From: Verrucomicrobiia bacterium
GTDB lineage: Bacteria > Verrucomicrobiota > Verrucomicrobiia > Limisphaerales > DSYF01
NCBI GenBank assembly: GCA_035765895.1
Contig: DASTWL010000089.1
Coordinates: forward strand, 1 to 64,000
Direction: 5' to 3'
DNA length: 64,000 nucleotides
Within the stretch, counting starts at the first letter, position 1. The number at the start of each line of letters is the position of its first letter. The notes beneath the pieces were generated by a model, which worked only from the letters and a program-made list of their open reading frames with translations, made no database searches and had not been told where the DNA came from. Made by a program: the position numbers and the translations under genes. Of the stretch, positions 15,684 to 31,340 are shown in pieces.

Positions 15684-18600
15684 TTACGGCGCGAGGCGCA
15701 CCCGGTAAAAACGGGCCGACGCCGGCGCCGAAACGTCGACTGCGCGCAGGACCGGCCCGGTGGCCACGCCGTTCGTCAGCACCTGCCAGTTCGGCGCCGC
15801 CAAATCATCGGTGTATTGCAGGTCGTAAGTCCGGTTCAGCCGCGTCGTCCAGGCCAGGTTGAATCCGTTCGAACCCGGCGTGGCCGCAAACAATTTGGGT
15901 GCGCGTTCCGCAACAGGAGCGAGGGCCACGCCCCGAAACAATTGCCCGGGGCCCGCCGTGGCCAGGATCACGACGGGCGACAGCGCGCCATTGTCCGTGA
16001 GGGAAATCAACTGGTTGCCGGCATCCTCGGCCGTGGTCGCAAACAGCACCGGCCGCGCGCCCGAGAAATCCACCGCCAGCCCGCGGGCACCCCGGTTCGT
16101 CACGCCGGCGAAGGCATAGCTCAGCGACCAGGCACCATTCGTGAAATCCCATCGTTGAAGGCCGCCCAGATCGCCGACGGTGTCGTCCGCCACATAGGCA
16201 GTCGTGAACTCCTGATTGAAGGCGAATGCATACGGTTTCCCGGTTGGCGAACTGAACAGGAGTTCGGGCGTGGCCGCAACGGTGGGAGCGCCTGAAATGC
16301 GCCACAGCCCCGGCGTCGTTTTGCTGGTGCTGAAATAGAGGTTACCGCCCGACATGTGCACCACGGCCGTGTTTTTTACCGCGGTTTGGATCACGGCCGG
16401 CGGACCGTCACCGAAATAACAGGTGCCGCTGGCCGCACCTGCGCCCCAGTAGTTGCCAAGGCCGTCCGTGGTGCCGGAGCGCATGTTGTTCCCGCCATAT
16501 TGATTGGTGGTGACTCCCACCAGTGCAAAGCCCCCAGCGGCGTCCATGACGCCCAGCGCACGTGGCACGGTGACGGCGTCCGCATTGGCCAATGACGAGG
16601 CAAGCACCGCGGCGTCGGCGAGGTTGAGGTGGTAACCCGCCAGCACCAGCAAACGGCCATCCGCCGAACGCGTGAGTGCGCCTTCGGAGGAGGCGCTGCC
16701 GCTGATGATGAACGCGTTCGTGGCGTTGTTGGGAACGGCATGGGAGTCCACCCGCACGCCGTTGGTGGTGAACTGGTCGATGAAGACGGAATTGCCGTGG
16801 CTGCCGAGCGTTTCGGTGCCGTCGCCCACCCGCAGCACGGCGAGATTACCCGCCTCAAACGGCAACGGCCCGTTGGTGTCGCCCTGATAGGTGGTCGTCA
16901 CCGTCGTCGTGGCGCCCGGAACCTCCGTGTTGCGCAAATCGTAGCCCGTGATGCTGACCTGATTGGTGCCCGGCTGCAACGTGATGGTCGCGGTCCAGTT
17001 TGTCAGGCTGGTCCATGTAACCGGCACGACGGCATCGCCGAACCGGATGGTTGTCACGCCTACGGGCGCCGTGCCGGTGAGGGTTTCGAGATTGTTGGAT
17101 ACCGTGACGGATGGATCGACACCGAACGGCGCCGCCACCCCGGCCAGTTGCGACTGGAGAAAACCACGGCGCTGGCTGAACCAGTGCTTGACCACCGTCG
17201 CGTCCGTCAAAGGTTGTCCATCACACCATTGAATGCCGTTGGCAAACAGCGCCTGCGATTTCGCATCAATGACCGGGTCGCAGTGCTCCGGCGCCAGCGG
17301 ACCGTTCACGGCGTCCTCGATGGCCCGCCAATAGGCCCGGGCAAAGGGCGGAAACGCGTAGAAGCGCGTGAGGGTTGGATCTTCCGAATTGAACAGCGGC
17401 GCGCTATCAGGCGCGTAACCGGCGTTCTGCTGGGCGGCCGCAAGCATGAGCCAGTCGAGATCGAACATGAAGAGCTTCGCCTTCCCGCTGGTGGACTGGA
17501 ATAGATACATGTTCTTGCCGATTTGATGACCCCACGAATCGAAATTCACAATGATGTGCTCGGTGGCAAAGATGCGCATCCATTCCTCCACGTCCACCAG
17601 GCTGGTGACGTCGCTGGTGTAAGGCTCGGGCTGCGCCGCGTTGAAGGCATCGACGAGGTCGAACAGATGCGAAAAGTCATTCACGCGGTCGGCCGCGCGG
17701 AACAGCCAGTTCCAACGGTAACGCGCGGTTTTCTTGAGCCCGCCAGTGGTAAGGTAGGGCTGCAGGCGCGGCTGCGGATCCGCCACGAGATTGCCGGCGT
17801 CGCCGAATTCAAAGGCGCGCTCCACCTTGTAAAAGGCGCCGTCGGTTTCGTCCGGCGACCATTCATCCAGGAAATCGCCGCCCGGCTGCATCACTGCCTC
17901 AAACGTGAGGTGCCGCGCCTCATCCGTCACGCCATTGACATGCAGCCGGATGGTGTGCCGGTGACTGAAGGGCAGGTTCAACTGATCGGCGATCCAGTAG
18001 CCCATTTGCTCCTGTAAGGCCGTGGTTTCGCTGCCGTGACCGCCCGGCCAGTCGAGCACCAGCTCGTTGGCACCGAGGAACAGATCGTCGTCGGGAAATT
18101 CCACGCTGTAACCGCAGGCCTTGCCCGTGGGTGAATCGTAACCGGGCGCGATGTAGGGGCTGCCGGCGTAACGCGCCCCGGTGTTGTAAATCACCCGGCT
18201 GTCATTCAAAACAAACGTCACGTCAAACGGCGTGTTGTCGGCCTTGTTCCGGCTGCTCCAGGCATTGAGCGTCGCCTGCGTCATCCAAATGCGATAGACG
18301 GGCAGATTTCCCGTTGGCTGAACTTCGCCCACGCGCACCAGGCACTCGCGGCTGGGCGCATTCGCGGGAAACCGGGCGGTCACCGGCTGGACTGCGCCAT
18401 CCGTCGCCTCGAGGTAAAAGGCGATCAGGGTTCCCGCGGCCTGGCCCGGGATGATGGCGCGGAAGGTGCCGTCGCCGTTGCTGTCCATGGACACCGTGGA
18501 ATAAACCGCGCCGGGATCGAGCCGATACTTCAGGCTCAAGGTTCCCAAACCATCGACATCGCTGATGCGGGCCGTCACCACAATCGGTTCGCCAGCTTGC

Positions 18601-21600
18601 GGCAGCACGGGCGCGGGGTGGACCTCCGTGATGGCCGGCGGTGCGTTGGTCACGTAGCGGCTGTTCGGCAGCCGCGGCGTGCCCGGCGACGCGGGCAGGT
18701 TCATTTCACCCACGCATTCCAGCCAGTTGCCACGCAATCGCAGCAGCACTTCGGGATGCCCCGTCAGCCAGCGCACTTGGGCCTGGATGGTGGCCAACGA
18801 ATTGGTCGGCAGCGGCGGGTTGACGGCGATGCGAACACGGTTGACCTGGTTGTCACCGCGGTCCACCGCCCGGATGTGATAGGACTGGCTGCTGTGGTAA
18901 CCTTCCCCCGTTTCGAGGCCGGATTGGGATTCGGTGCCTTCCGCGGTCCAACCGCTGGCGCCGGATTCAAACGTCGAGTTGGCAAGGTGATTGGTTCCGC
19001 CCGCGTCCAGCACCTGCACATCGTCCACCAGACACTCGCCGGCGCCTTGCAGGAGAATCTGCAGCTCGTCGGCCGCGGTGCCGTAAGTGGAATTGTCCAG
19101 CACCCCCGTCGCCGTGACGCTGGTCCACGCGGCCTTGTGCGATTCATCGCTATCCTGCCAGTTGGGCGCGAGCGAATTGTCGGCCCGGGGATCAATCAGT
19201 TCCAGACTGCTGCCGTCCTTGTGCGCCCACCGTCCCCAGCGGCCCCCGATGCCGTAGGTCAGTTCGTTTTCGACCGGATAAATCACGTTCGTCACCGCTT
19301 CACCACTGCCGTTGGTGGTGATCAACGTGTCGGTCCGGGCGAGCGCGAGCCGTTCCCCCTTGTGCGCCAGCGAGCCGCTGAAACTGCCGGCCAGCGTGGC
19401 GGTGGTGAGATAGGGATGCGTGGCCTGCAAATGCGCGGCGTTGCGCGCCACGACCAGATAGCCGCCCGCCGGCAGGACGGTGCCATTGGAAAACGCAAAG
19501 CTGATCCCGCTCACAAATCGCCAGCCGCTGAGATCCACCGGATTGAAGCTGCGGTTGCAGAGCTCGATGTATTGGTCGTCGTCATCCAGCGTGATGGGCG
19601 CATACATGATTTCGTTGATGACCACCGGTGCCGCCTGCGGACCGCTGTTGAGCGTGCCCGGAGAGGCCGTCGCCAGCGGGCTGAATCGTTCGACGCCGTC
19701 CGGCTGCCGGCCGGTTGCCACGTCTGTTTGTTGCGCGTCAAAGCGCACCGCGTCAAGCACCCGCGTCCGGCCGGGGTTGTGGAGGTAAATCGTGTCCCCC
19801 GCCGCCGCGAGGGCAAACCCCAGTTGGGCTTCGTTGAAAGACAGCCAGCCGTGGGCCGGAATGATCGTTCCGGAAGGGAGCACCAGCTCATTGGTCTGCG
19901 AGTCGCAACCGAGCGAACACCCGGAAAGGTCGAGCGAAACCGCCCCGCGATTGTAAAGCTCGATGAACTGCGTCTGCGCGACGCCGTGCGCCAGAAATTC
20001 ATTGATGACCACCGGACGCAACGGATCGGGTGTGACGGGATCCAGCCGGCCGGGCGATCCGCCCACGGAATCGCTCGCAGCCCAGGCCTGCGGGTCGTTC
20101 TCGCCATACGACGGCCGCGCCAGCACCAACGAATGCCCCGCACCATCCGCCGCCACCGGCCACGGCGCGCGGTCCGAATATTCCACCTCGAGAAACACGC
20201 CACCCGCTTGATTGAGCAAACGCACCGTGCCTTCGCTGTTGGGAAGGCTGCCCGTGAACGGACCGAACACGTTGCTGAGCCCGTATGCCGCGGCCAGCTC
20301 CGAGGGCGACTTGGCCACGACCAGACAGGCGCCGCCGGCGAGCAGCGTGCCCGGCGGAAACGTGTAATTGAGGTCGCCCGCCAGCGAGTAACCGCCCAGG
20401 CTTTGAGGTTCACCGCGCGTGTTGCACAGTTCCACAAATTCGAGCGCGCTGTTCGTCGGATGATACATGATTTCCGAAATGACCAGCCCCGTGCGCTGGC
20501 TGGACGGACCCGGCACTTCACCCACCACCACGACATTCGGGCCGGCATTCGTCACGGCGGCCAGGTCGCGGAACCGCACCGTCGTTGACGCATTCGTATC
20601 ATCACTGGCCGCGAACAGGCCGAAATAAAGGGTCGCCGGCAGGCTCAAACTGGCGGTGCCGGTTTGGGTCCAGTTCTCGCCATCAAAACCCGCGTAGCCC
20701 GTGAATGTGTCACCGGCGCGTTTCAAACGCAGCCAGGTGTTGGGATAATTGACCGGCACGGAACCCGTCCGCATCGTCGCGCTGTTGCTGGCTGTGCGCG
20801 CCTCAAAAAATGCGCCGCTGATGCTTGGCGTGGCCAGTGCGGCAACAAAACGCGCCCCCGGAGCCAGCGCTTCCCGCGCCATCAAGCCGGCCTCGGACCA
20901 GGCATTGACGAACGCCAACGCATCCAGCCGCACTGCCACGTCGAAATCGCCATTCTTGAACAGGTAACTGAACTGGGCCTGGTCATTGGTGCCGCCCACC
21001 CCGGCACCGCCGGCCGTCAGATCCAAGCCGTTGGTCTGGCCGGATTGAAGTCCCGCCACCACCGGCGCACCGATGGCCTGCGGCTGAAAGACACTCGCGT
21101 TGAAGCCGGCCTGTGAGTTGGGCGCGATCTCGTTGGCCGCCGCCGATTGATCGGTGAGATGATTCACCGTCAGCACGTAGGGCGCCCCGTCGGTCGGGAC
21201 GGCGACACTCAAAACCACATTGCTTTGCGACGCATCCAAGGCCGCTCCGGAAATGGCCACCGCGCCCGCCGGCCCCGCCAACGCAAAGTTTGCCAGTTGC
21301 ATCGCCGTCGCCGGCACGAGGCGTTCCGAAAAACGCGCCTCCACCTGATTCAACCCAAGCGACTGCGCGGCCACGAGCGAAGGCGCACGGGTGTCCGCCA
21401 TGACGAACAACGTGGCCACGTGGCTGGTGGCCGCGTAAGGAAGGTTGCTGACGACATTGGCCGCCACGACGGCAAAGCGCGCGCCGTCGTCGGCCAGCAA
21501 CGCCGCCGGAATCGTGTAATTCAGGTTCGTCGCGCCCGGGAGGAGCGCATCGTTCTTATACCATTGCACGGCGGGCGCCGGGTTGCCGGTCACCGCCACG

Positions 21601-23045
21601 GCAAAGGTTGCGGACGCCAGTTCATCAACGGTCTGGTCGGCTGGCTGCGTCAGGACGAAGGGCGGAAACGCCTGCGCCGGCTGACCGCTGACCGCGTATA
21701 TTCCGGTCGATTGCGCCGATGAGGCCCGACTGAAGGTGAGGCGGGTCAGTGGTTTGTTGGTCGGCCCCAAAAGCGCCGCCAGATTGATCGTGGTCGGATA
21801 GAAGCGCGGATTGTCCGGCGCACCTTGCGTGGCACCGGAGGAAAGCGTGATGCGCTCAACACCACCGAGGGCGTAACCGGAATTATTGAACCAGTCCGGC
21901 GCGCGATAATTGGTCACCACGGTGCTGCCGTCTGCAAAGGTCAGCGTCCAGGTGCCCGCGCTGCTCGATGAAGCGCTGGCTGAATTGGCCAGGACGGAAA
22001 TGCGGTCATAAACCGCCGGCTTGATCAGTTCCAGCGTGCCGCTGGTGCTGCCGGTGGCGCTGCTCAACACCAGCGCGTTGCTCGCGGTGAAGGATGAAAA
22101 TTGAAAAACGGTGTCGTCGCCGGTTGCACTGAGAAAGCTCCCCGAAAGTGGCAGCCCGTAACTCGTCCCAGCCAGTCCCTTCTGGTAAAAGGCCCGCCCT
22201 TCTCCGGGATTCAACTCCATCGCCGCCGCGTCGTAAGGCGGCCCGACCGCGCCCTTCTCCACCACCACATCACGATTGAAGCCGGTGACGGCCACGGGCC
22301 GCTGGTTCGTCGGATTAAACTCCTCCAGCCGGAAACCACCCAACGCGTAGCCGTAAACGCCGTTGGCCACGCCGCCGCCCGGCAGACCATTGGTGTATTG
22401 CCGCGTCGTCACGCTGAACGAACCCGCCGCCGACGGCACAATCTCCTCCCAATCCACCATCGCGCCGTCGGTGTTGACTCCCGTGTTGATGGCCACTTGA
22501 TTCGCGGCCAGCCCTGCCGTAAAGCCGCCTGCGTGGGCACTGACAAACGACGTCGCACCGTCGATTTGAAACAAGGACCAGCGATTGGTATAGGTGGCGC
22601 CGCCGCGCACCACGCCGCCTTTCAAGCTGTAAACTTTTGTCGGGTCCAAGCCCGTAATCGTGTAAGTGACGAAGGCTCCGGCCGGAACCTGGACGATGGC
22701 ATCGGATGCGCCGGCACCCGCAAAGTCCACGTAACCATTGAAGGCGTCATACAAGGGTGTGCCGGGATTCGGATTGGCCGCCGCGGGTGCGCCGCTGACG
22801 CTGCCGGCGCTCGTGATGACGACGCTCACCGGCAGCGCCGCGCCGGAATCGACATCCTTCAACGCACCGCTGCTGCCAGGAGTATTGCCCATGATGTTCC
22901 AAGTGGTCACATTCGTCGCTGTGCCACTTGCGGGCGCATGGTCGTTGAACGCCACAAACTGCGCACGGCAAAGGGGCATTGCGGCAACAAAAGCAATGAG
23001 GCTGAACCAACGCCATCCCCGACGTGAAGAGAGATTCGATTCCAT
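15684..23045 (-). CDS. Giant secreted Ig/lamin-tail/CotH protein
   Basis: 2453 residues from the ATG at 23045, chosen because it begins a signal peptide (WFSLIAFVAAMPLCRAQF). Domains in order: an N-terminal beta region; an Ig-like domain near 640 (PADQTVDELASATFAVAV); a concanavalin-like region; three lamin-tail domains starting at about 850 (VISEIMYHPT), 1010 (VVINEFLAHG) and 1140 (VVINEIMYAP); a carbohydrate-binding-like segment; a CotH-type region from about 1580 (VYRIWMTQATLNAW, then GYSVEFPDDD and WSPDETDGAFYKVE); a beta-propeller-like segment; and a C-terminal module ending ARFYRVRLAP. CotH family members include atypical protein kinases. Such lamin-tail/CotH giants are typical of Verrucomicrobiota and Planctomycetota. 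The gene is monocistronic with its own terminator. Likely a cell-surface or exported protein; function unknown. Confidence 0.8.
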   Translation of the reverse strand: MESNLSSRRGWRWFSLIAFVAAMPLCRAQFVAFNDHAPASGTATNVTTWNIMGNTPGSSGALKDVDSGAALPVSVVITSAGSVSGAPAAANPNPGTPLYDAFNGYVDFAGAGASDAIVQVPAGAFVTYTITGLDPTKVYSLKGGVVRGGATYTNRWSLFQIDGATSFVSAHAGGFTAGLAANQVAINTGVNTDGAMVDWEEIVPSAAGSFSVTTRQYTNGLPGGGVANGVYGYALGGFRLEEFNPTNQRPVAVTGFNRDVVVEKGAVGPPYDAAAMELNPGEGRAFYQKGLAGTSYGLPLSGSFLSATGDDTVFQFSSFTASNALVLSSATGSTSGTLELIKPAVYDRISVLANSASASSSSAGTWTLTFADGSTVVTNYRAPDWFNNSGYALGGVERITLSSGATQGAPDNPRFYPTTINLAALLGPTNKPLTRLTFSRASSAQSTGIYAVSGQPAQAFPPFVLTQPADQTVDELASATFAVAVTGNPAPAVQWYKNDALLPGATNLNYTIPAALLADDGARFAVVAANVVSNLPYAATSHVATLFVMADTRAPSLVAAQSLGLNQVEARFSERLVPATAMQLANFALAGPAGAVAISGAALDASQSNVVLSVAVPTDGAPYVLTVNHLTDQSAAANEIAPNSQAGFNASVFQPQAIGAPVVAGLQSGQTNGLDLTAGGAGVGGTNDQAQFSYLFKNGDFDVAVRLDALAFVNAWSEAGLMAREALAPGARFVAALATPSISGAFFEARTASNSATMRTGSVPVNYPNTWLRLKRAGDTFTGYAGFDGENWTQTGTASLSLPATLYFGLFAASDDTNASTTVRFRDLAAVTNAGPNVVVVGEVPGPSSQRTGLVISEIMYHPTNSALEFVELCNTRGEPQSLGGYSLAGDLNYTFPPGTLLAGGACLVVAKSPSELAAAYGLSNVFGPFTGSLPNSEGTVRLLNQAGGVFLEVEYSDRAPWPVAADGAGHSLVLARPSYGENDPQAWAASDSVGGSPGRLDPVTPDPLRPVVINEFLAHGVAQTQFIELYNRGAVSLDLSGCSLGCDSQTNELVLPSGTIIPAHGWLSFNEAQLGFALAAAGDTIYLHNPGRTRVLDAVRFDAQQTDVATGRQPDGVERFSPLATASPGTLNSGPQAAPVVINEIMYAPITLDDDDQYIELCNRSFNPVDLSGWRFVSGISFAFSNGTVLPAGGYLVVARNAAHLQATHPYLTTATLAGSFSGSLAHKGERLALARTDTLITTNGSGEAVTNVIYPVENELTYGIGGRWGRWAHKDGSSLELIDPRADNSLAPNWQDSDESHKAAWTSVTATGVLDNSTYGTAADELQILLQGAGECLVDDVQVLDAGGTNHLANSTFESGASGWTAEGTESQSGLETGEGYHSSQSYHIRAVDRGDNQVNRVRIAVNPPLPTNSLATIQAQVRWLTGHPEVLLRLRGNWLECVGEMNLPASPGTPRLPNSRYVTNAPPAITEVHPAPVLPQAGEPIVVTARISDVDGLGTLSLKYRLDPGAVYSTVSMDSNGDGTFRAIIPGQAAGTLIAFYLEATDGAVQPVTARFPANAPSRECLVRVGEVQPTGNLPVYRIWMTQATLNAWSSRNKADNTPFDVTFVLNDSRVIYNTGARYAGSPYIAPGYDSPTGKACGYSVEFPDDDLFLGANELVLDWPGGHGSETTALQEQMGYWIADQLNLPFSHRHTIRLHVNGVTDEARHLTFEAVMQPGGDFLDEWSPDETDGAFYKVERAFEFGDAGNLVADPQPRLQPYLTTGGLKKTARYRWNWLFRAADRVNDFSHLFDLVDAFNAAQPEPYTSDVTSLVDVEEWMRIFATEHIIVNFDSWGHQIGKNMYLFQSTSGKAKLFMFDLDWLMLAAAQQNAGYAPDSAPLFNSEDPTLTRFYAFPPFARAYWRAIEDAVNGPLAPEHCDPVIDAKSQALFANGIQWCDGQPLTDATVVKHWFSQRRGFLQSQLAGVAAPFGVDPSVTVSNNLETLTGTAPVGVTTIRFGDAVVPVTWTSLTNWTATITLQPGTNQVSITGYDLRNTEVPGATTTVTTTYQGDTNGPLPFEAGNLAVLRVGDGTETLGSHGNSVFIDQFTTNGVRVDSHAVPNNATNAFIISGSASSEGALTRSADGRLLVLAGYHLNLADAAVLASSLANADAVTVPRALGVMDAAGGFALVGVTTNQYGGNNMRSGTTDGLGNYWGAGAASGTCYFGDGPPAVIQTAVKNTAVVHMSGGNLYFSTSKTTPGLWRISGAPTVAATPELLFSSPTGKPYAFAFNQEFTTAYVADDTVGDLGGLQRWDFTNGAWSLSYAFAGVTNRGARGLAVDFSGARPVLFATTAEDAGNQLISLTDNGALSPVVILATAGPGQLFRGVALAPVAERAPKLFAATPGSNGFNLAWTTRLNRTYDLQYTDDLAAPNWQVLTNGVATGPVLRAVDVSAPASARFYRVRLAP

Positions 23046-23305
23046 GGCGACAATGTTCTGGCGGGGAGGATTCACACTCCCAAGCCCGCCCTCCGCAACC
23101 CCCGTGCGGGCCTGCCCCAGCTTGGACAGCTTCCCCCGCACGCCCGACACGTCGCAACGGCAAAGGACGCATGGGTGGAAGTTTGCAGAATACGTAAGGC
23201 TAAGAATAAACCCACCCCATGCAAGTCGCACAAGAGTGGTAGGCGGGAGTCCGGGCGTTGGATTTATCCGGTTGCCAACTTGGGGACCGGCGCGCAAACA
23301 TCGAT
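23046..23305. other. Leader region of the giant secreted protein gene
   Basis: This is non-coding sequence between the leuC terminator and the ATG at 23045. It should contain the promoter of the minus-strand secreted-protein gene. I see no confident -35/-10 pair, operator or riboswitch fold in it. Confidence 0.4.
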
Positions 23306-23341
23306 AAACAAAAAAGCCCGTCCGGCCGAAGCCGGACGGGC
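23306..23341 (-). terminator. Rho-independent terminator of leuC
   Basis: Read on the minus strand, an 11-bp perfect stem (23331-23341 with 23316-23326) closed by a 4-base loop is followed by a T-rich run (complement of 23307-23315). It begins 18 bases past the leuC stop. Confidence 0.9.
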
Positions 23342-23359
23342 GGATTAAAACATGGCCCT

Positions 23360-24733
23360 TCAGCTCAGGTAGTCGCGCGGATCCACGATCTTGCCCGCGA
23401 TGGCACTGGCGGCCACGGTGGCCGGACTGGCGAGGAACACCTGCGATTCCTTGTCGCCCATGCGGCCGGGGAAGTTGCGGTTGGTGGCGCTGATGCACTT
23501 GAGCCCCGCCTGATTGATGCGGCCGAAGGTGTCCACCGGACCGCCCAGGCACGCGGCACAACCGGCGTTTTCCGTCATGCGCACGCCGGCGTCCTCGAGG
23601 ATTTGCCAGATGGTCTTGTCACCCCAACGCGTGGACTGCAATTCATGCACGATGTCGGGCGTGGCCGGCACCCCGAAGGTGTCGATGCTCACCTTCCGGC
23701 CGCGCAGCACGCGGGCGAATTCGACAAAGTCGCTGGTTTTGCCGCCCGTGCAGGAGCCGACATACGCGCGGTCGAGTTTCATGTGGCCCATCTCTCGGGC
23801 CTTCTTGCGCTGGCCCGGATCAGGATGGCAGGCCACGGTGGGCTCAAGCTTGTCGAGGTCCACCACAAGTTCGTAAACGAACTTCTGGTCGGCGTCGGCC
23901 GCCACGGGTTCATAATTCGCCTTCGTGCCGTTCAACCTGGTCCGCGCATCAACGTATTCCGCCGTGCGCGCGTCGAAGGGGAAGATGCCGTTCTTGCCGC
24001 CCGCCTCGATGGCCATGTTCGCAATCGTCATGCGGTCGTCCATGGAAAGGCTCGCCACGCCCGGACCGTCAAATTGCATCGCGCGATAGGTGGCTCCGTC
24101 AAAACCGATTTCGCCGATGCAATGCAGGATGACATCCTTTGCCATCACGCCCGGCTGCAATTTCCCTTCCAATCGGAAATGCATCGTCTCCGGAACCTTG
24201 ATCAACAGCTTGCCCGTGCCCAGGACAAAGCCGGCGTCCGTGTTCCCGATGCCGGTGGCGAACTGGTTGAACGCGCCCGCCATGCAGGTGTGGGAATCGG
24301 TGCCGAAGAGCACTTCGCCCGGACGCGTGTGGCCCTTGGCCGGCAACGCGGTGTGACAGACGCCCGCGTAGTTCGCGCCGTATTGCCGCTTGAGGTTGCC
24401 CTTGGTGGCATCGAATTTCCAGGTGCCGTTCGGATCGTCAATCACGTCGTAAAAGTAGGGCAGCCCCTGCTCCCGGGCGAACTCGCGCAGGATGTCCACG
24501 TTGCGGTTGGACCGCGAATCGGCCGTGAAAATGTAGTGGTCGGGAATGATGACCACCTTCTGGCGGTCCCAAACCTTGGCGGTCTTGCCGAACTCCCGTT
24601 TGAACACGCCAATGGTGCCGGGGCCGCACACATCGTGCGTCATCAGCACGTCAGCGTTCACCCAGATGTTTTCGCCGGCTTCCACCTTGGCCTTGCCCGC
24701 CGCACGGGCGAGCAACTTTTCAGTCAACGTCAT
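23360..24733 (-). CDS. leuC: 3-isopropylmalate dehydratase large subunit (aconitase family)
   Basis: 457 residues, the usual LeuC length. It would isomerise 2- to 3-isopropylmalate in leucine synthesis, using a 4Fe-4S cluster. Cluster Cys lie in YVGSCTGGKTSDF and ENAGCAACLGGPVDTFG. Other family motifs are VIIPDHYIFTAD, LFGTDSHTCMAGAFNQFATG and SATNRNFPGRMGD. LeuC needs LeuD, which is not adjacent here, so the subunits are split across the genome or the partner lies elsewhere. Homoaconitase and related hydro-lyases share these motifs and cannot be fully excluded. Transcribed alone, with a strong terminator. Confidence 0.82.
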   Translation of the reverse strand: MTLTEKLLARAAGKAKVEAGENIWVNADVLMTHDVCGPGTIGVFKREFGKTAKVWDRQKVVIIPDHYIFTADSRSNRNVDILREFAREQGLPYFYDVIDDPNGTWKFDATKGNLKRQYGANYAGVCHTALPAKGHTRPGEVLFGTDSHTCMAGAFNQFATGIGNTDAGFVLGTGKLLIKVPETMHFRLEGKLQPGVMAKDVILHCIGEIGFDGATYRAMQFDGPGVASLSMDDRMTIANMAIEAGGKNGIFPFDARTAEYVDARTRLNGTKANYEPVAADADQKFVYELVVDLDKLEPTVACHPDPGQRKKAREMGHMKLDRAYVGSCTGGKTSDFVEFARVLRGRKVSIDTFGVPATPDIVHELQSTRWGDKTIWQILEDAGVRMTENAGCAACLGGPVDTFGRINQAGLKCISATNRNFPGRMGDKESQVFLASPATVAASAIAGKIVDPRDYLS

Positions 24734-26200: not shown

Positions 26201-26578
26201 TCATCCCTGGAAAATCTTCTTCAAATATTCCGTGTTCGCGCCGAAGTTGCGTTTCACATTCCGCGGATCGTGCTTGTCGCACGAGCGCTCAGCCACCAGC
26301 CAGCCGCGCCAGCCGAGCGCGTCCAGCGTCTGCTTGATCCTGGGCAAATCGATCTGCGGATCGTTCTCCAGCCACACGCCATCCTCGTTGGTGCAGTGAA
26401 ACTGGCAAATACGGTCCCTGCCCAGCCTGCGCAGTTCGGTCGGAATGTCGCGGCCGAATTTGGCGGCGTTGGCAAAGTTGAAATAGCTTTTCACGCCGGG
26501 CGAACCCACGTCGGCCAGCAGCTTTACTTCGTCGGCAGCGGCGGCAATTTTGCCGGCCACCTGCACTTTAGACGCCAA
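26201..26578 (-). pseudogene. 3' fragment of a sugar phosphate isomerase/epimerase (AP endonuclease-2 fold)
   Basis: At most 125 residues, starting from a TTG with a stop four codons upstream. The sequence is the C-terminal half of a xylose-isomerase-like TIM barrel: GVKSYFNFANA, GRDRICQFHCTNEDGVW (metal-ligand His and Glu region), then LGWRGWLVAERSCDKHD and FGANTEYLKKIF at the end. Full members have about 270-300 residues, so the N-terminal half and its metal ligands are missing. It sits 19 bases after the beta-galactosidase stop, in the same orientation. Probably a remnant left by a deletion. Confidence 0.75.
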
Positions 26579-26597: not shown

Positions 26598-29402
26598 TCA
26601 AAAACCGGGCGGACGGCCTCCCGGCAGCCGGCCAAAATAAAAGCTTACCGTGCCGGAATACTCGCCCTGCCCGACGTTCGGCTGGCCTTGAGGCCCCGTC
26701 GTGTCCGCCGGTTTGAACTTGGTGCCAATCGGCGGAATCGCATGCAGGAAACCCAGCCCGCACTGCGGCACGTTAGCGTAGGCGTGGCCGACCAGGTTCT
26801 TGGGCGGAAACTCGGGCGTGAGCACCTGCACGAACGGGATGTTCTCCGGCACCACGGTGATCAGGCCCTCGGTCGTCTCCAATTGCAGCCAGCGCACGTT
26901 GGCGAAGAAGCCCTTGAACTCGGGATACACCCAGCCGCGATAGCCGGTGATGGTGTCGTTGTAATCGTTCTCCCAGACGCCGAGCGTGCCGCCGCCGAGG
27001 CGGTTCTTCCAGACGCGATACGGCCCGTCGCCCAGCCAGCGTTTGCGCTTCACGAGCTGCTCCGGGTAATCGAAAAACACGCCGATGGCGTCGTTCCTGC
27101 CGGTGGCGGTGTATTCATAATCGCAGCACAGCCAACCGTCCCCACGCAATCGCCACGTCACTCTCTTAAGGATGGAACCGGTCGCCGCCACCTGGGGACC
27201 GCTAGAAAGCGTAAACCGCCTCCCACCGCGCTCGACATATACCAACATGCCATTCTCAATGCGCGCTACGATACCGTTTCCCCTCAACTCATTCGTGGCG
27301 CGCAACACACCGTCGAAATCTGTCCGGGCAATGACGGGAACATCCTTCGCCAGCATGTCTCGTCGCTTTAGTGGCCAGACGTAAGTATGCAACTCCCATC
27401 CGTTCGGCCCCACCACTCGCACGGCCAGAAAACCGCCTTCCGTCACGTCTGCTGTGTGCCAGAAATTCTCCGGCAGATCCAAATGCAGCTGGCCGCGACC
27501 ACCTGGTGGAATGCCGGACACTCGCGCGACACCCTCGGCGCTGATCGTTTCCACACTCGAACCCGCAAGTGCCGGCGGAATGAAACGACGCAGCTGCCAG
27601 GTAAACTTGCATTGTTTCGCATCGGTAAAGTCAAAATGGTTTTCCACCGTCAGCGTGCCATCGAAATTTACGGGCAGGTTTGTCTCCAGAATCTGAATCG
27701 GCGACCACAGTTGTTTGATCGCATAGAAGCTCCCCTCGCGTTCGCGATACGGGCCGACGATGCCGTCCGGCGCCTGGTTGCCCGCCGTGTCAATCTCGCC
27801 CGTGTCCGGACGCCGGATGCCCTCGTCGGCAAACGCCCAGATGAAGCCGCCCGCGCAGTTCGGGTGGCTCATCATCATGCTCCAGTAATCCGCCAGCCCC
27901 GCCGCCGCGCCGCCGTCGTAAAGCCCGTGGATGAATTCCGTCGGCAGGTAGATGAGACCGCCGGGATAATTCGTGTTCAACATCTCCAGCTTCTTGCCCA
28001 TGTTGAAATTCATCGGCTCGCCGCGCGCCGCGACCTCGGCTTTGTCGTAAGCGAGGTAATGTGCGGTGTTGAGGCCGCTGAAAATCGCCCACGGATGCAG
28101 CACCCGCCGTTGCTGCGGGTCATACGCCCCAAACAGCCGGTCGAGGTTGGTGTTGAAACCGCCCTCGTTGCCATTGTCCCAGAAAATGATGCTCGGGTGG
28201 TTCACGTCGCGCGTCACCATTTCGCGGACAAGTTTGGGGCCAACCTCGTTGTCGTAGTGATTTTGCCAGCCCGCGAGTTCGTCGAGCACGTAGAGGCCGA
28301 GTTCGTCGCAGAGGTCGAGGAACTCCACGTCCGGCGGATAATGCGACATGCGGACGGCGTTGCCGTTCATGTCCTTGATGGTCTCGATGTCGAGCCGGTG
28401 CACCGCCTCGCTCAGGCAGCGACCCGAGTCCGGCCAGAACGAATGCCGGTTCACGCCCTTGAGGATGATCTTCTTTCCGTTGAGATACAGCCCGTCGCCA
28501 TCGCGCACCTCGAACGTGCGGAAGCCGAAGCGTTGTTTGCAGGTGTGGATCGTCTCGTTGCCACGCTTGAGCCGCACTTCGACCTGATAAAGATTCGGCG
28601 TCTCGGCGGTCCATTGTTTGGGCGATGAAATTTGCGTCGTGAGTTGCGCATAATCGTCGCCCATGCCAGCGGCGGCGATGGGAGCCTCAAAAGGTTCGCC
28701 AACGTCTTTGCCATCGAGCGTCTGGATTTGGGCCTCGGCATTCCAAGCGTTGGTGAGCCCATTGAAGAAAGCTTTGGCCGAAAAACGCCCATCCGCCTTG
28801 GCATCAATCGCCACGCGAGAGATGAACTGCTGTGGCACCGCTTCGAGATACACGGGCCGGTAGATGCCCGCGAACACCCAGTAATCCGCCAGCCGTTCGG
28901 CCTTGTTCACGGATTCGTTCGCCGAATGCCGTGCCACGTCCACCTCCAAATGGTTCGTCGCGCCAGGCTTCACCAGCTTCGTCACCTCGTATTTGAACCG
29001 ATAGAACCCGCCCTGGTGCGTCGGCCCGACGGACTCGCCATTCAGCTTTGCGCTCGTGTCGGTCATCACACCCTCGAACACGAGAAAGACGCGTTTGCCG
29101 GTCCAGCCGGCCGGCACGGTGAAGTCGTGCTCGTATAGTCCGTGTTCATTCCAGGCGTTCGTCGCATCCTTGTGATAGGTCAAGGTGCCGAAACCCTTGA
29201 CGTCCCACTGCGACGGCACGGGCAGATTCGTCCAGACTCCCGAGTGTGCGCCGCTCGTGCACAAGAAGCGCCAGGGGACCGTATTGTCCTTGTCGCGACC
29301 GGAGAGATAAAGGCGCCCGGTCTCGACGGGCGCCGCGTGAAGGGCGTTGGTGGAGGCGGCCAGCAGCACAAGGGTGGCCAGGCGTGAGGGCAACTGGATC
29401 AT
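26598..29402 (-). CDS. Secreted glycoside hydrolase family 2 (beta-galactosidase-like)
   Basis: 934 residues from the ATG at 29402, which starts a signal peptide (LATLVLLAASTNALHAAP). Domains: GH2 sugar-binding jelly roll (about 30-190, with SQWDVKGFG), Ig-like domain (about 195-300), TIM barrel from about 305 with ILKGVNRHSFWPDSG, the acid/base Glu413 in WDNGNEGG and the nucleophile Glu489 in LPTEFIHG, then C-terminal beta domains. It should hydrolyse terminal beta-linked sugars outside the cytoplasm. The specificity (galactoside, glucuronide or mannoside) cannot be assigned. It is the only clearly intact enzyme of a damaged sugar-utilisation region. A 191-base divergent interval separates it from the RuBisCO-like fragment. 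Confidence 0.85.
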   Translation of the reverse strand: MIQLPSRLATLVLLAASTNALHAAPVETGRLYLSGRDKDNTVPWRFLCTSGAHSGVWTNLPVPSQWDVKGFGTLTYHKDATNAWNEHGLYEHDFTVPAGWTGKRVFLVFEGVMTDTSAKLNGESVGPTHQGGFYRFKYEVTKLVKPGATNHLEVDVARHSANESVNKAERLADYWVFAGIYRPVYLEAVPQQFISRVAIDAKADGRFSAKAFFNGLTNAWNAEAQIQTLDGKDVGEPFEAPIAAAGMGDDYAQLTTQISSPKQWTAETPNLYQVEVRLKRGNETIHTCKQRFGFRTFEVRDGDGLYLNGKKIILKGVNRHSFWPDSGRCLSEAVHRLDIETIKDMNGNAVRMSHYPPDVEFLDLCDELGLYVLDELAGWQNHYDNEVGPKLVREMVTRDVNHPSIIFWDNGNEGGFNTNLDRLFGAYDPQQRRVLHPWAIFSGLNTAHYLAYDKAEVAARGEPMNFNMGKKLEMLNTNYPGGLIYLPTEFIHGLYDGGAAAGLADYWSMMMSHPNCAGGFIWAFADEGIRRPDTGEIDTAGNQAPDGIVGPYREREGSFYAIKQLWSPIQILETNLPVNFDGTLTVENHFDFTDAKQCKFTWQLRRFIPPALAGSSVETISAEGVARVSGIPPGGRGQLHLDLPENFWHTADVTEGGFLAVRVVGPNGWELHTYVWPLKRRDMLAKDVPVIARTDFDGVLRATNELRGNGIVARIENGMLVYVERGGRRFTLSSGPQVAATGSILKRVTWRLRGDGWLCCDYEYTATGRNDAIGVFFDYPEQLVKRKRWLGDGPYRVWKNRLGGGTLGVWENDYNDTITGYRGWVYPEFKGFFANVRWLQLETTEGLITVVPENIPFVQVLTPEFPPKNLVGHAYANVPQCGLGFLHAIPPIGTKFKPADTTGPQGQPNVGQGEYSGTVSFYFGRLPGGRPPGF

Positions 29403-29593
29403 GGTGCCGCCATCGTAACCACACCCCGCCCCAGCGACAAACCGCGAAATGGCCGAAAGAAATGCACTTTTATGCTTTCGCACACCCTTCGCCGCCACTT
29501 GACCGTCCGTTCGCGGCCGTTCGAAAACACAAGTTCTGAACCGCTTTTTCCATGGTTGCCCGAAGCCGCGCGCCACTACGCTTGACTGCATCC

Positions 29594-30058
29594 ATGGAAC
29601 GCATCTTCGCCACGTATCGCATTGAGACACCACTGGCCGTCGAGCAGGCCGCCGCGGTGCTCGCGGGCGAACAATCTTCCGGCACGTTCGTGGAAGTGCC
29701 CGGCGAAACCGCAGAACTCAAGCAACGCTTCGCCGCGCGTGTGGAGAAAATCACGCCGCTCGTAAGCGTCACGAGCCCCGCGCTTCCCGGCTGCCGCGGC
29801 GGTTCCGGCAAAATCCAACGCGCCAAGGTCGTCGTTTCCTGGTCGCTGGAAAACATGGGCTACAACCTGCCCACGCTCGTTTCGACGATTCAGGGCAACC
29901 TCTACGAGCTTTCGCAATTCTCCGGGCTCAAGCTGACGGACCTTCAAGTGCCCGCATCGTTTGGGGAGCATTTTCGCGGGCCAAAGTTTGGTATGGCCGG
30001 CTGCCGCGCCTTGACCGGCGTTTACAACCGTCCGCTCGTCGGCACCATCATCATCCCC
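29594..30058 (+). pseudogene. 5' fragment of a RuBisCO-like protein, fused to a symporter fragment
   Basis: From the ATG at 29594 (MERIFATYRIETPLAV) the first ~154 residues match the RuBisCO large-subunit N-terminal domain: AAAVLAGEQSSGTFVEVPGE, QGNLYELSQFSGLKLTDLQV and FRGPKFGMAGCRALTGVYNR followed by PLVGTII. Where RuBisCO would continue with KPN and the catalytic barrel, the sequence passes in frame into a sodium/solute symporter. The whole C-terminal TIM barrel, with all catalytic residues, is absent. The parent was probably a form IV RuBisCO-like protein, some of which act in sugar-acid catabolism. Catalytic function is not possible. Confidence 0.8.
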
Positions 30059-31340
30059 TTCTTCCGGCACGCGGTCGGAATGAGCGCCTACGAATACTTC
30101 GGACACCGCTTCGGCTACGGGGCCCGGGCTTACAGCGCGCTCGCGTTCACAGCAGGACATTTTTCCAAGATGGGTTTCGTGCTTTACCTGATGGCGCTCA
30201 CGATCAACAGCATGACCGGCTGGAACATTTTCGTGGTCATTCTCGTCGTCGGCGTGCTGACGGTGCTCTACACGCTGGTGGGCGGACTGGAGGCGGTGAT
30301 TTGGACGGACGTGGTGCAGGGCATCATCATGGTGGCCGGCCTGGGAGTGGTGATTGGCTTCCTCTGCCATCTGATGCCGGGGGACCTTCCGCGGCGTTTC
30401 ACCTCGCCTGGGAAAAAAGCAAGTTCAGCCTCGGCACGACGGACCTGGACTTCACCCGCAAGAGCAGCATCTGGGTGATGTCGCTCTGCGGATTCTTCTG
30501 GCATCTGCAAAAATACAGCTCCGACCAGACGCTCGTGCAACGCTACCTCGTCGCCAAATCCGACCGCGACGCGCTCAAAGGCGTCGCACTGGGCGCCGCC
30601 TTGTGCGTGCCGGTGTGGACGTTGTTCATGCTGATCGGCAACCTGGTCTGGTGCTATTACCAGTTGTCCGGGGAGGTGTTTCCGGCCTATATCGACAGGG
30701 CCGACAAGGTCTTTCCCTACTTTCTGACCACCAAGATTCCTGCTGGCGTGACGGGTCTGTTCATGGCCGCACTGTTCGCCGCCGGCATGTCCACCCTGTC
30801 CTCGGACCTCAACTGCCTCTCGGCCGTGGGCGTGGAGGATTATTACCGCAAACTGCGGCCCCACGCCCCGGATCGCGAGCACTGAAAGCGGGGAAAATCA
30901 TCGTGGGCGTCTGCGGGCTCACGGCCGTCAGCATTGCGGTGGTCATCGCGTTGCGCGGAGAACGTGTCCTGTCGCTTTACTACGCCGTGTCCTCGATCAT
31001 CTCAGGCGGACTGGCGGGACTGTTCCTGTTGTCCTTCCTCAGCCGGCGGGCCAACCGCCAGGGCCTCTGGATCGGCATCACCGCCAATCTGCTCTTCACG
31101 GCGTGGGCCACGTTGACCAGCGGAAAAAGTCAGATGCTCGACCTGGGCCGCTTCAACTGCAAACTCCCAGGCGTGATGATCGGCGTGGTCGGCCACGTCT
31201 TGGTGCAACTGGTGGGCTACCTCGCCAGCTGGTGCTGCCCGACCGATGAACACGCCAAACGCGAATGGACCATCTGGGGCTGGTTGGAAAAGCGCAAAAC
31301 GCTGTCCGCAACGTCACCCGACGCCGCCCGGTCCGTTTGA
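30059..31340 (+). pseudogene. Sodium/solute symporter (SSS family), 5'-truncated and frameshifted twice
   Basis: Symporter sequence starts at PFFRHAVGMSAYEYFGHRFG and runs through LVGGLEAVIWTDVVQGIIM. The frame breaks in a G run at 30379-30383; the next frame continues FHLAWEKSKFSLGTTDLDF, YSSDQTLVQRYLVAKSDRDA and GMSTLSSDLNCLSAVGVEDY to a stop at 30885. A second break at about 30880 moves to the frame reading LKAGKIIVGVCGLTAV and ending at 31340. Both breaks fit loss of one base. The first few transmembrane helices are missing at the fusion. SSS transporters import sugars or related solutes with sodium. This copy should be non-functional unless both frameshifts are sequencing errors. Confidence 0.82.

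Follow-up and report, generated by a model that had tools for sequence, protein, structure and literature searches.

An open reading frame that joins part of a RuBisCO-like protein (RLP) to part of a sodium:solute symporter (SSF), found in the draft-quality genome of a Verrucomicrobiia bacterium (4.64 Mb in 96 contigs, 96% complete), is very likely a pseudogene that arose when about 4.6-4.7 kb was deleted from within one catabolic cluster. It is a dead gene, no novel type of protein, and annotating it as a RuBisCO-like transporter would be a mistake. We regard the locus as the decaying remnant of a sugar-acid operon, probably a recent and ordinary deletion pseudogene.

The chimeric frame and its surroundings

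The frame runs from an ATG at 29594 to 30478 on the plus strand of the window (the whole 64,000-nucleotide stretch of DNA that was analysed), and it is open from 29552. A Pfam profile search placed RuBisCO_large_N (PF02788) at residues 4-123 (35.9-38.5 bits, cut-off 20.7) and SSF (PF00474) in frame with it at residues 144-259 (57.3 bits, cut-off 22.8), which confirms the in-frame chimera claimed in a preliminary description of this DNA. Similarity to RLPs spans residues 1-152, ending at GTII, and that to SSF symporters begins at about residue 144. The first part (29594-30049, plus strand) is a 152-residue remnant of a form-IV RLP, consisting of the N-terminal domain with the catalytic barrel missing, as judged from PF02788, the NCBIfam OiaX model and an identity of 74-81% to the intact RLPs of relatives up to GTII at residue 152. 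It accounts for the single PF02788 match in the genome. The RuBisCO catalytic domain (PF00016), which scores 206.9 bits in the intact RLP of one relative (locus L017), was found neither in the chimera nor, by profile search, anywhere else in the 96%-complete genome, so the barrel is missing as first described. The remnant deviates once at the 75 sites that 15 relatives conserve (intact genes, zero to three times), and in the tree it has one of the longer end branches (0.22 versus 0.04-0.12 in neighbours). With so little divergence of the RLP piece at conserved sites, the event, if real, would be recent.

The symporter part is spread over three frames, all on the plus strand. Its first segment (30050-30382; PF00474 at 54.6 bits), in the frame of the chimera and lacking the N-terminal helices, is 66-69% identical to intact SSF genes in three other genomes (G021, G045 and G052). 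The homology leaves this frame at about 30383, with the first frameshift at about 30379-30396, and is taken up in a second frame (30397-30875; 63% identity to the SSF proteins of loci L017 and L026). A further shift at about 30873-30887 leads into the third frame (30887-31340; 56% identity to the same proteins), where similarity ends at the natural C-terminus, 31340. Matches to SSF sodium:solute symporters (PF00474 and TIGR00813) thus take in the C-terminal portion of the chimera and run on through the next two frames; the chimeric frame itself holds positions 50-167 of the 406 in the SSF profile, and no single open frame carries a complete SSF domain. Compared with intact homologues of 528-594 residues, this twice-broken copy has lost its first ~65-115 residues, depending on the start codon taken in relatives, and the absence of the first symporter helices is therefore also borne out. 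Since the barrel and these helices are both absent, the predicted product can retain neither the RLP nor the symporter activity.

Divergent from the RLP remnant lies an apparently intact GH2 glycosidase gene (26598-29414, minus strand), similar to the exo-beta-1,4-galactosidase BT4156 (NF049891, 809 bits, below the cut-off of 1700). Orthologues with 58-63% identity occur at the same place, again divergent from the RLP gene, in loci L015, L019 and L020, and also on contig 22 of G045. Beyond it, at 26201-26578 on the minus strand, a xylose-isomerase-like TIM-barrel protein is reduced to its C-terminal half (PF01261 positions 140-241 of 249), which is 51-58% identical to the gene that precedes the RLP gene in L030, L037, L039, L050 and others. 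In Hymenobacter the orthologue immediately precedes the RLP gene, in agreement with the earlier assignment of the isomerase to the cluster. The neighbouring leuC-like, plsC, cmk, aroA, tyrA and dnaG-like frames are full length, and frameshifts were seen in the symporter only. To the right, G001, G002, G003 and G045 share the flanking genes tyrA-aroA-cmk-plsC, in part only on the short G003 contig. No RLP match was found in the sister species, G001, or in two other members of the family; in the sister species the flank is thus conserved, but the cluster was not found, and it offers no intermediate state. Elsewhere in the window, a 2625-residue frame on the minus strand (15684-23561) looks by eye like a multidomain secreted protein, parts of which recall lamin-tail and CotH sequences.

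The intact operon in relatives

We found 57 genome loci (L013-L069) with a relative of the RLP piece. The RLP gene is followed on the same strand by a DUF1537 kinase (PF07005/PF17042), an Asp/Glu-racemase-like protein (PF01177) and an SBF/BASS transporter (PF01758) in 42 of them, for example L066:10001-14548 and L030:9006-14769, the hosts belonging to Verrucomicrobiota and Bacteroidota. At a minimum, RLP and then kinase are present in 49 of the 57; most of the others are distant or cut by contig ends. Most of these RLPs have 410-445 residues and align to the end. Two loci from Limisphaerales, L017 and L026, carry an SSF symporter directly after the SBF gene, 56-63% identical to the symporter segments of the window, and after it an iron-dependent alcohol dehydrogenase (Fe-ADH) gene, with DHDPS-like and PdxA-like genes further on in L017. 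Automatic clustering had grouped the RLP with SBF genes, and SBF was considered as the partner of the fusion; it was rejected because the symporter belongs to SSF (PF00474) and not to SBF (PF01758). The grouping was probably bridged by a fusion in L015, described below.

The surroundings of the operon vary. In Hymenobacter, the xylose-isomerase-like gene precedes it and genes for DUF6298, SASA esterase and DUF3826 proteins flank it; in Lacibacter it is preceded by a GH127 gene. In L028, L031 and L033 (Flectobacillus and Cellulophaga sp.) no kinase was detected after the RLP gene and before the racemase-like one; proteins of ~616 and ~300 residues stand there instead, possibly as a replacement of the kinase step.

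Among named families, the RLP remnant and its intact relatives match best OiaX (3-oxo-isoapionate-4-phosphate decarboxylase, a form-IV RLP; NF042437), at 136.8 bits over model positions 2-149 for the remnant and 515-524 bits for the intact proteins, which fall short of the cut-off of 700. The copy in the window, restricted to the first 152 residues, cannot be catalytic. For the DUF1537 kinase of the relatives the best named family is OiaK (401 bits, cut-off 700), and in the 49 loci named above it adjoins the RLP gene as in an OiaX/OiaK pair; a profile search for PF07005 found none anywhere in the 96%-complete genome of the window. The closest solved structure, a RuBisCO-like protein (PDB 3nwr) for which the depositors' record states no function, is full length, unlike the fragment, and scores 119.6 bits with it and 430.7 bits with the intact L017 homologue. 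From these matches, the intact operon resembles the OiaX/OiaK part of apiose catabolism, with the Asp/Glu-racemase-like gene and the SBF transporter in addition. In D-apiose catabolism, RLPs have been described that decarboxylate, or transcarboxylate and hydrolyse, 3-oxo-isoapionate-4-phosphate (Carter et al. 2018, cited by the review PMC6302742), and a literature search for 3-oxo-isoapionate returned nothing beyond that review. The suggestion that the locus points to an unexplored form IV RuBisCO sugar pathway in this lineage has to be narrowed accordingly: apiose RLPs are published and OiaX and OiaK are the best matches, even if below their cut-offs, so the pathway is not wholly unexplored, and in this genome it is lost. 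Without a DUF1537 kinase anywhere, it cannot run here as it would in the relatives; what was lost would have been the decarboxylation of a sugar acid after its phosphorylation, in the manner of OiaK and OiaX.

Origin of the junction

The ancestral arrangement was presumably that of L017 and L026 beside the divergent GH2 gene: RLP, DUF1537 kinase, Asp/Glu-racemase-like gene, SBF/BASS transporter and SSF symporter. Set against this order, the part missing from the window extends from RLP residue 153 into the symporter, as far as its second or third helix, and amounts to about 4.6-4.7 kb when measured on L017 and L026. The preliminary description had proposed a deletion joining two neighbouring genes of one cluster, and had suggested searching relatives for an intact symporter beside an intact RLP gene. 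A deletion within one cluster is supported, both genes being intact in L017 and L026 in the same order and on the same strand; immediate adjacency is improbable, as the kinase, racemase-like and SBF genes lie between them there. Both parent genes are truncated compared with intact orthologues, and further disabling changes accompany the truncation. In the proposed course of events, the two symporter frameshifts would have come after the deletion; together with the halved isomerase gene they show that the cluster is being lost.

The junction, at 30032-30061 on the plus strand, was defined by comparing both of its sides with relatives, as DNA and as protein. RLPs have RPLIGTIIKP here (RPL-[VI]-GTIIKP in general), and the symporters have L-[VI]-GT-x-x-I-P/A-FFR, as in LLLGTTLIAFF (G045) and LALIGTVVIPF (G052). 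The lysine of GTIIKP, which follows GTII directly in relatives, is absent from the chimera. Both genes carry L-[VI]-G-T, or something close to it, in the same codon phase at this point, and the exact breakpoint falls at a position that cannot be fixed inside the shared stretch. Recombination or slippage between these short stretches is the probable cause of the deletion. The join is in frame because the two ends share L-[VI]-G-T in equal codon phase; a deletion between such matches is in frame by construction, and the in-frame join is therefore no sign of selection.

A second fusion was found at L015:10001-11200, in Pedosphaera sp. Baikal-deep-G230 (G100), where RLP residues 1-264 continue in frame into the SBF/BASS transporter of the same operon, of which the C-terminal 135 residues are present. 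As in the window, the GH2 gene is divergent, the join falls at a short similar word and the kinase is lost (the racemase-like gene is gone as well, and no PF07005 match was found in that genome). It differs in that the break comes at RLP residue 264 and not 152, the partner is SBF/BASS and not SSF, and no frameshift was seen. Because breakpoints and partners differ, the two are independent events; in the tree they stand apart, on branches that are weak there. The junction of the window itself recurred in none of the relatives and in none of the genomes covered by order and phylum searches, and the loci read among 320 order and 388 phylum genomes, which represent part of the matches, contained no other RLP-transporter fusion of this kind.

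The L015 fusion, the in-frame join and the conservation of the RLP part would fit a functional fusion, maintained by selection, in which the RLP N-terminal domain gives the symporter a sensor or an anchor. We consider this highly improbable: the symporter has lost its first helices, its frame breaks ~110 residues past the junction and then again, neither breakpoint nor transporter family is common to the two fusions, one join in three would be in frame in any case, and the junction is confined to this genome among those searched. An assembly or amplification artefact, in which the contig would unite two pieces from distant places while the organism keeps the genes intact, is unlikely on other grounds. 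The genome is a draft, a join at short homology would also fit chimeric reads, and a single deviation at 75 conserved sites is little decay for a dead gene; yet the shared stretch is far below the usual word length of an assembler, relatives carry the two joined genes within one cluster, and searches of the 96%-complete genome turned up no PF00016 or PF07005. A single wrong join would also leave unexplained the two frameshifts and the cut isomerase gene, three other lesions in the same cluster amid neighbouring frames that are full length.

The symporter could also have come from elsewhere. In G021, G045 and G052 (loci L089, L090 and L091), SSF genes stand in a second sugar-acid-type cluster (SSF - Fe-ADH - DHDPS-like - PdxA-like - DUF1537), and in G045 this operon and the RLP operon are on different contigs, with the orthologue of the GH2 gene beside the SSF operon. 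These observations would fit a rearrangement between two separate loci in place of a deletion within one cluster, a reading to which we give little credence, given that both operons are joined in the required order and strand in L017 and L026 and that L015, L019 and L020 have the same GH2 gene divergent from the RLP gene, as in the window; one deletion therefore suffices. At some sites the symporter of the window resembles those of G021 and G052, whose SSF cluster has no RLP gene, and given this likeness the deleted interval may differ from the exact L017 interval.

Implications for the RuBisCO pathway

On the reading that a deletion inside one cluster produced the chimera, this genome and the Baikal genome of L015 would hold two independent RLP-transporter deletions, showing a stepwise loss of the RuBisCO pathway. 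The intact operon, undescribed so far as our literature searches show, is a more interesting object than the fusion. It may tentatively be taken, beside its polysaccharide-degrading enzymes, for a form-IV RuBisCO pathway that handles a sugar acid, departs from the published apiose routes in its substrate or final step, and is being lost by the lineage of the window; that the substrate differs from isoapionate is a guess. With cultured carriers in Hymenobacter, Flavobacterium, Lacibacter and Runella, the substrate is testable.
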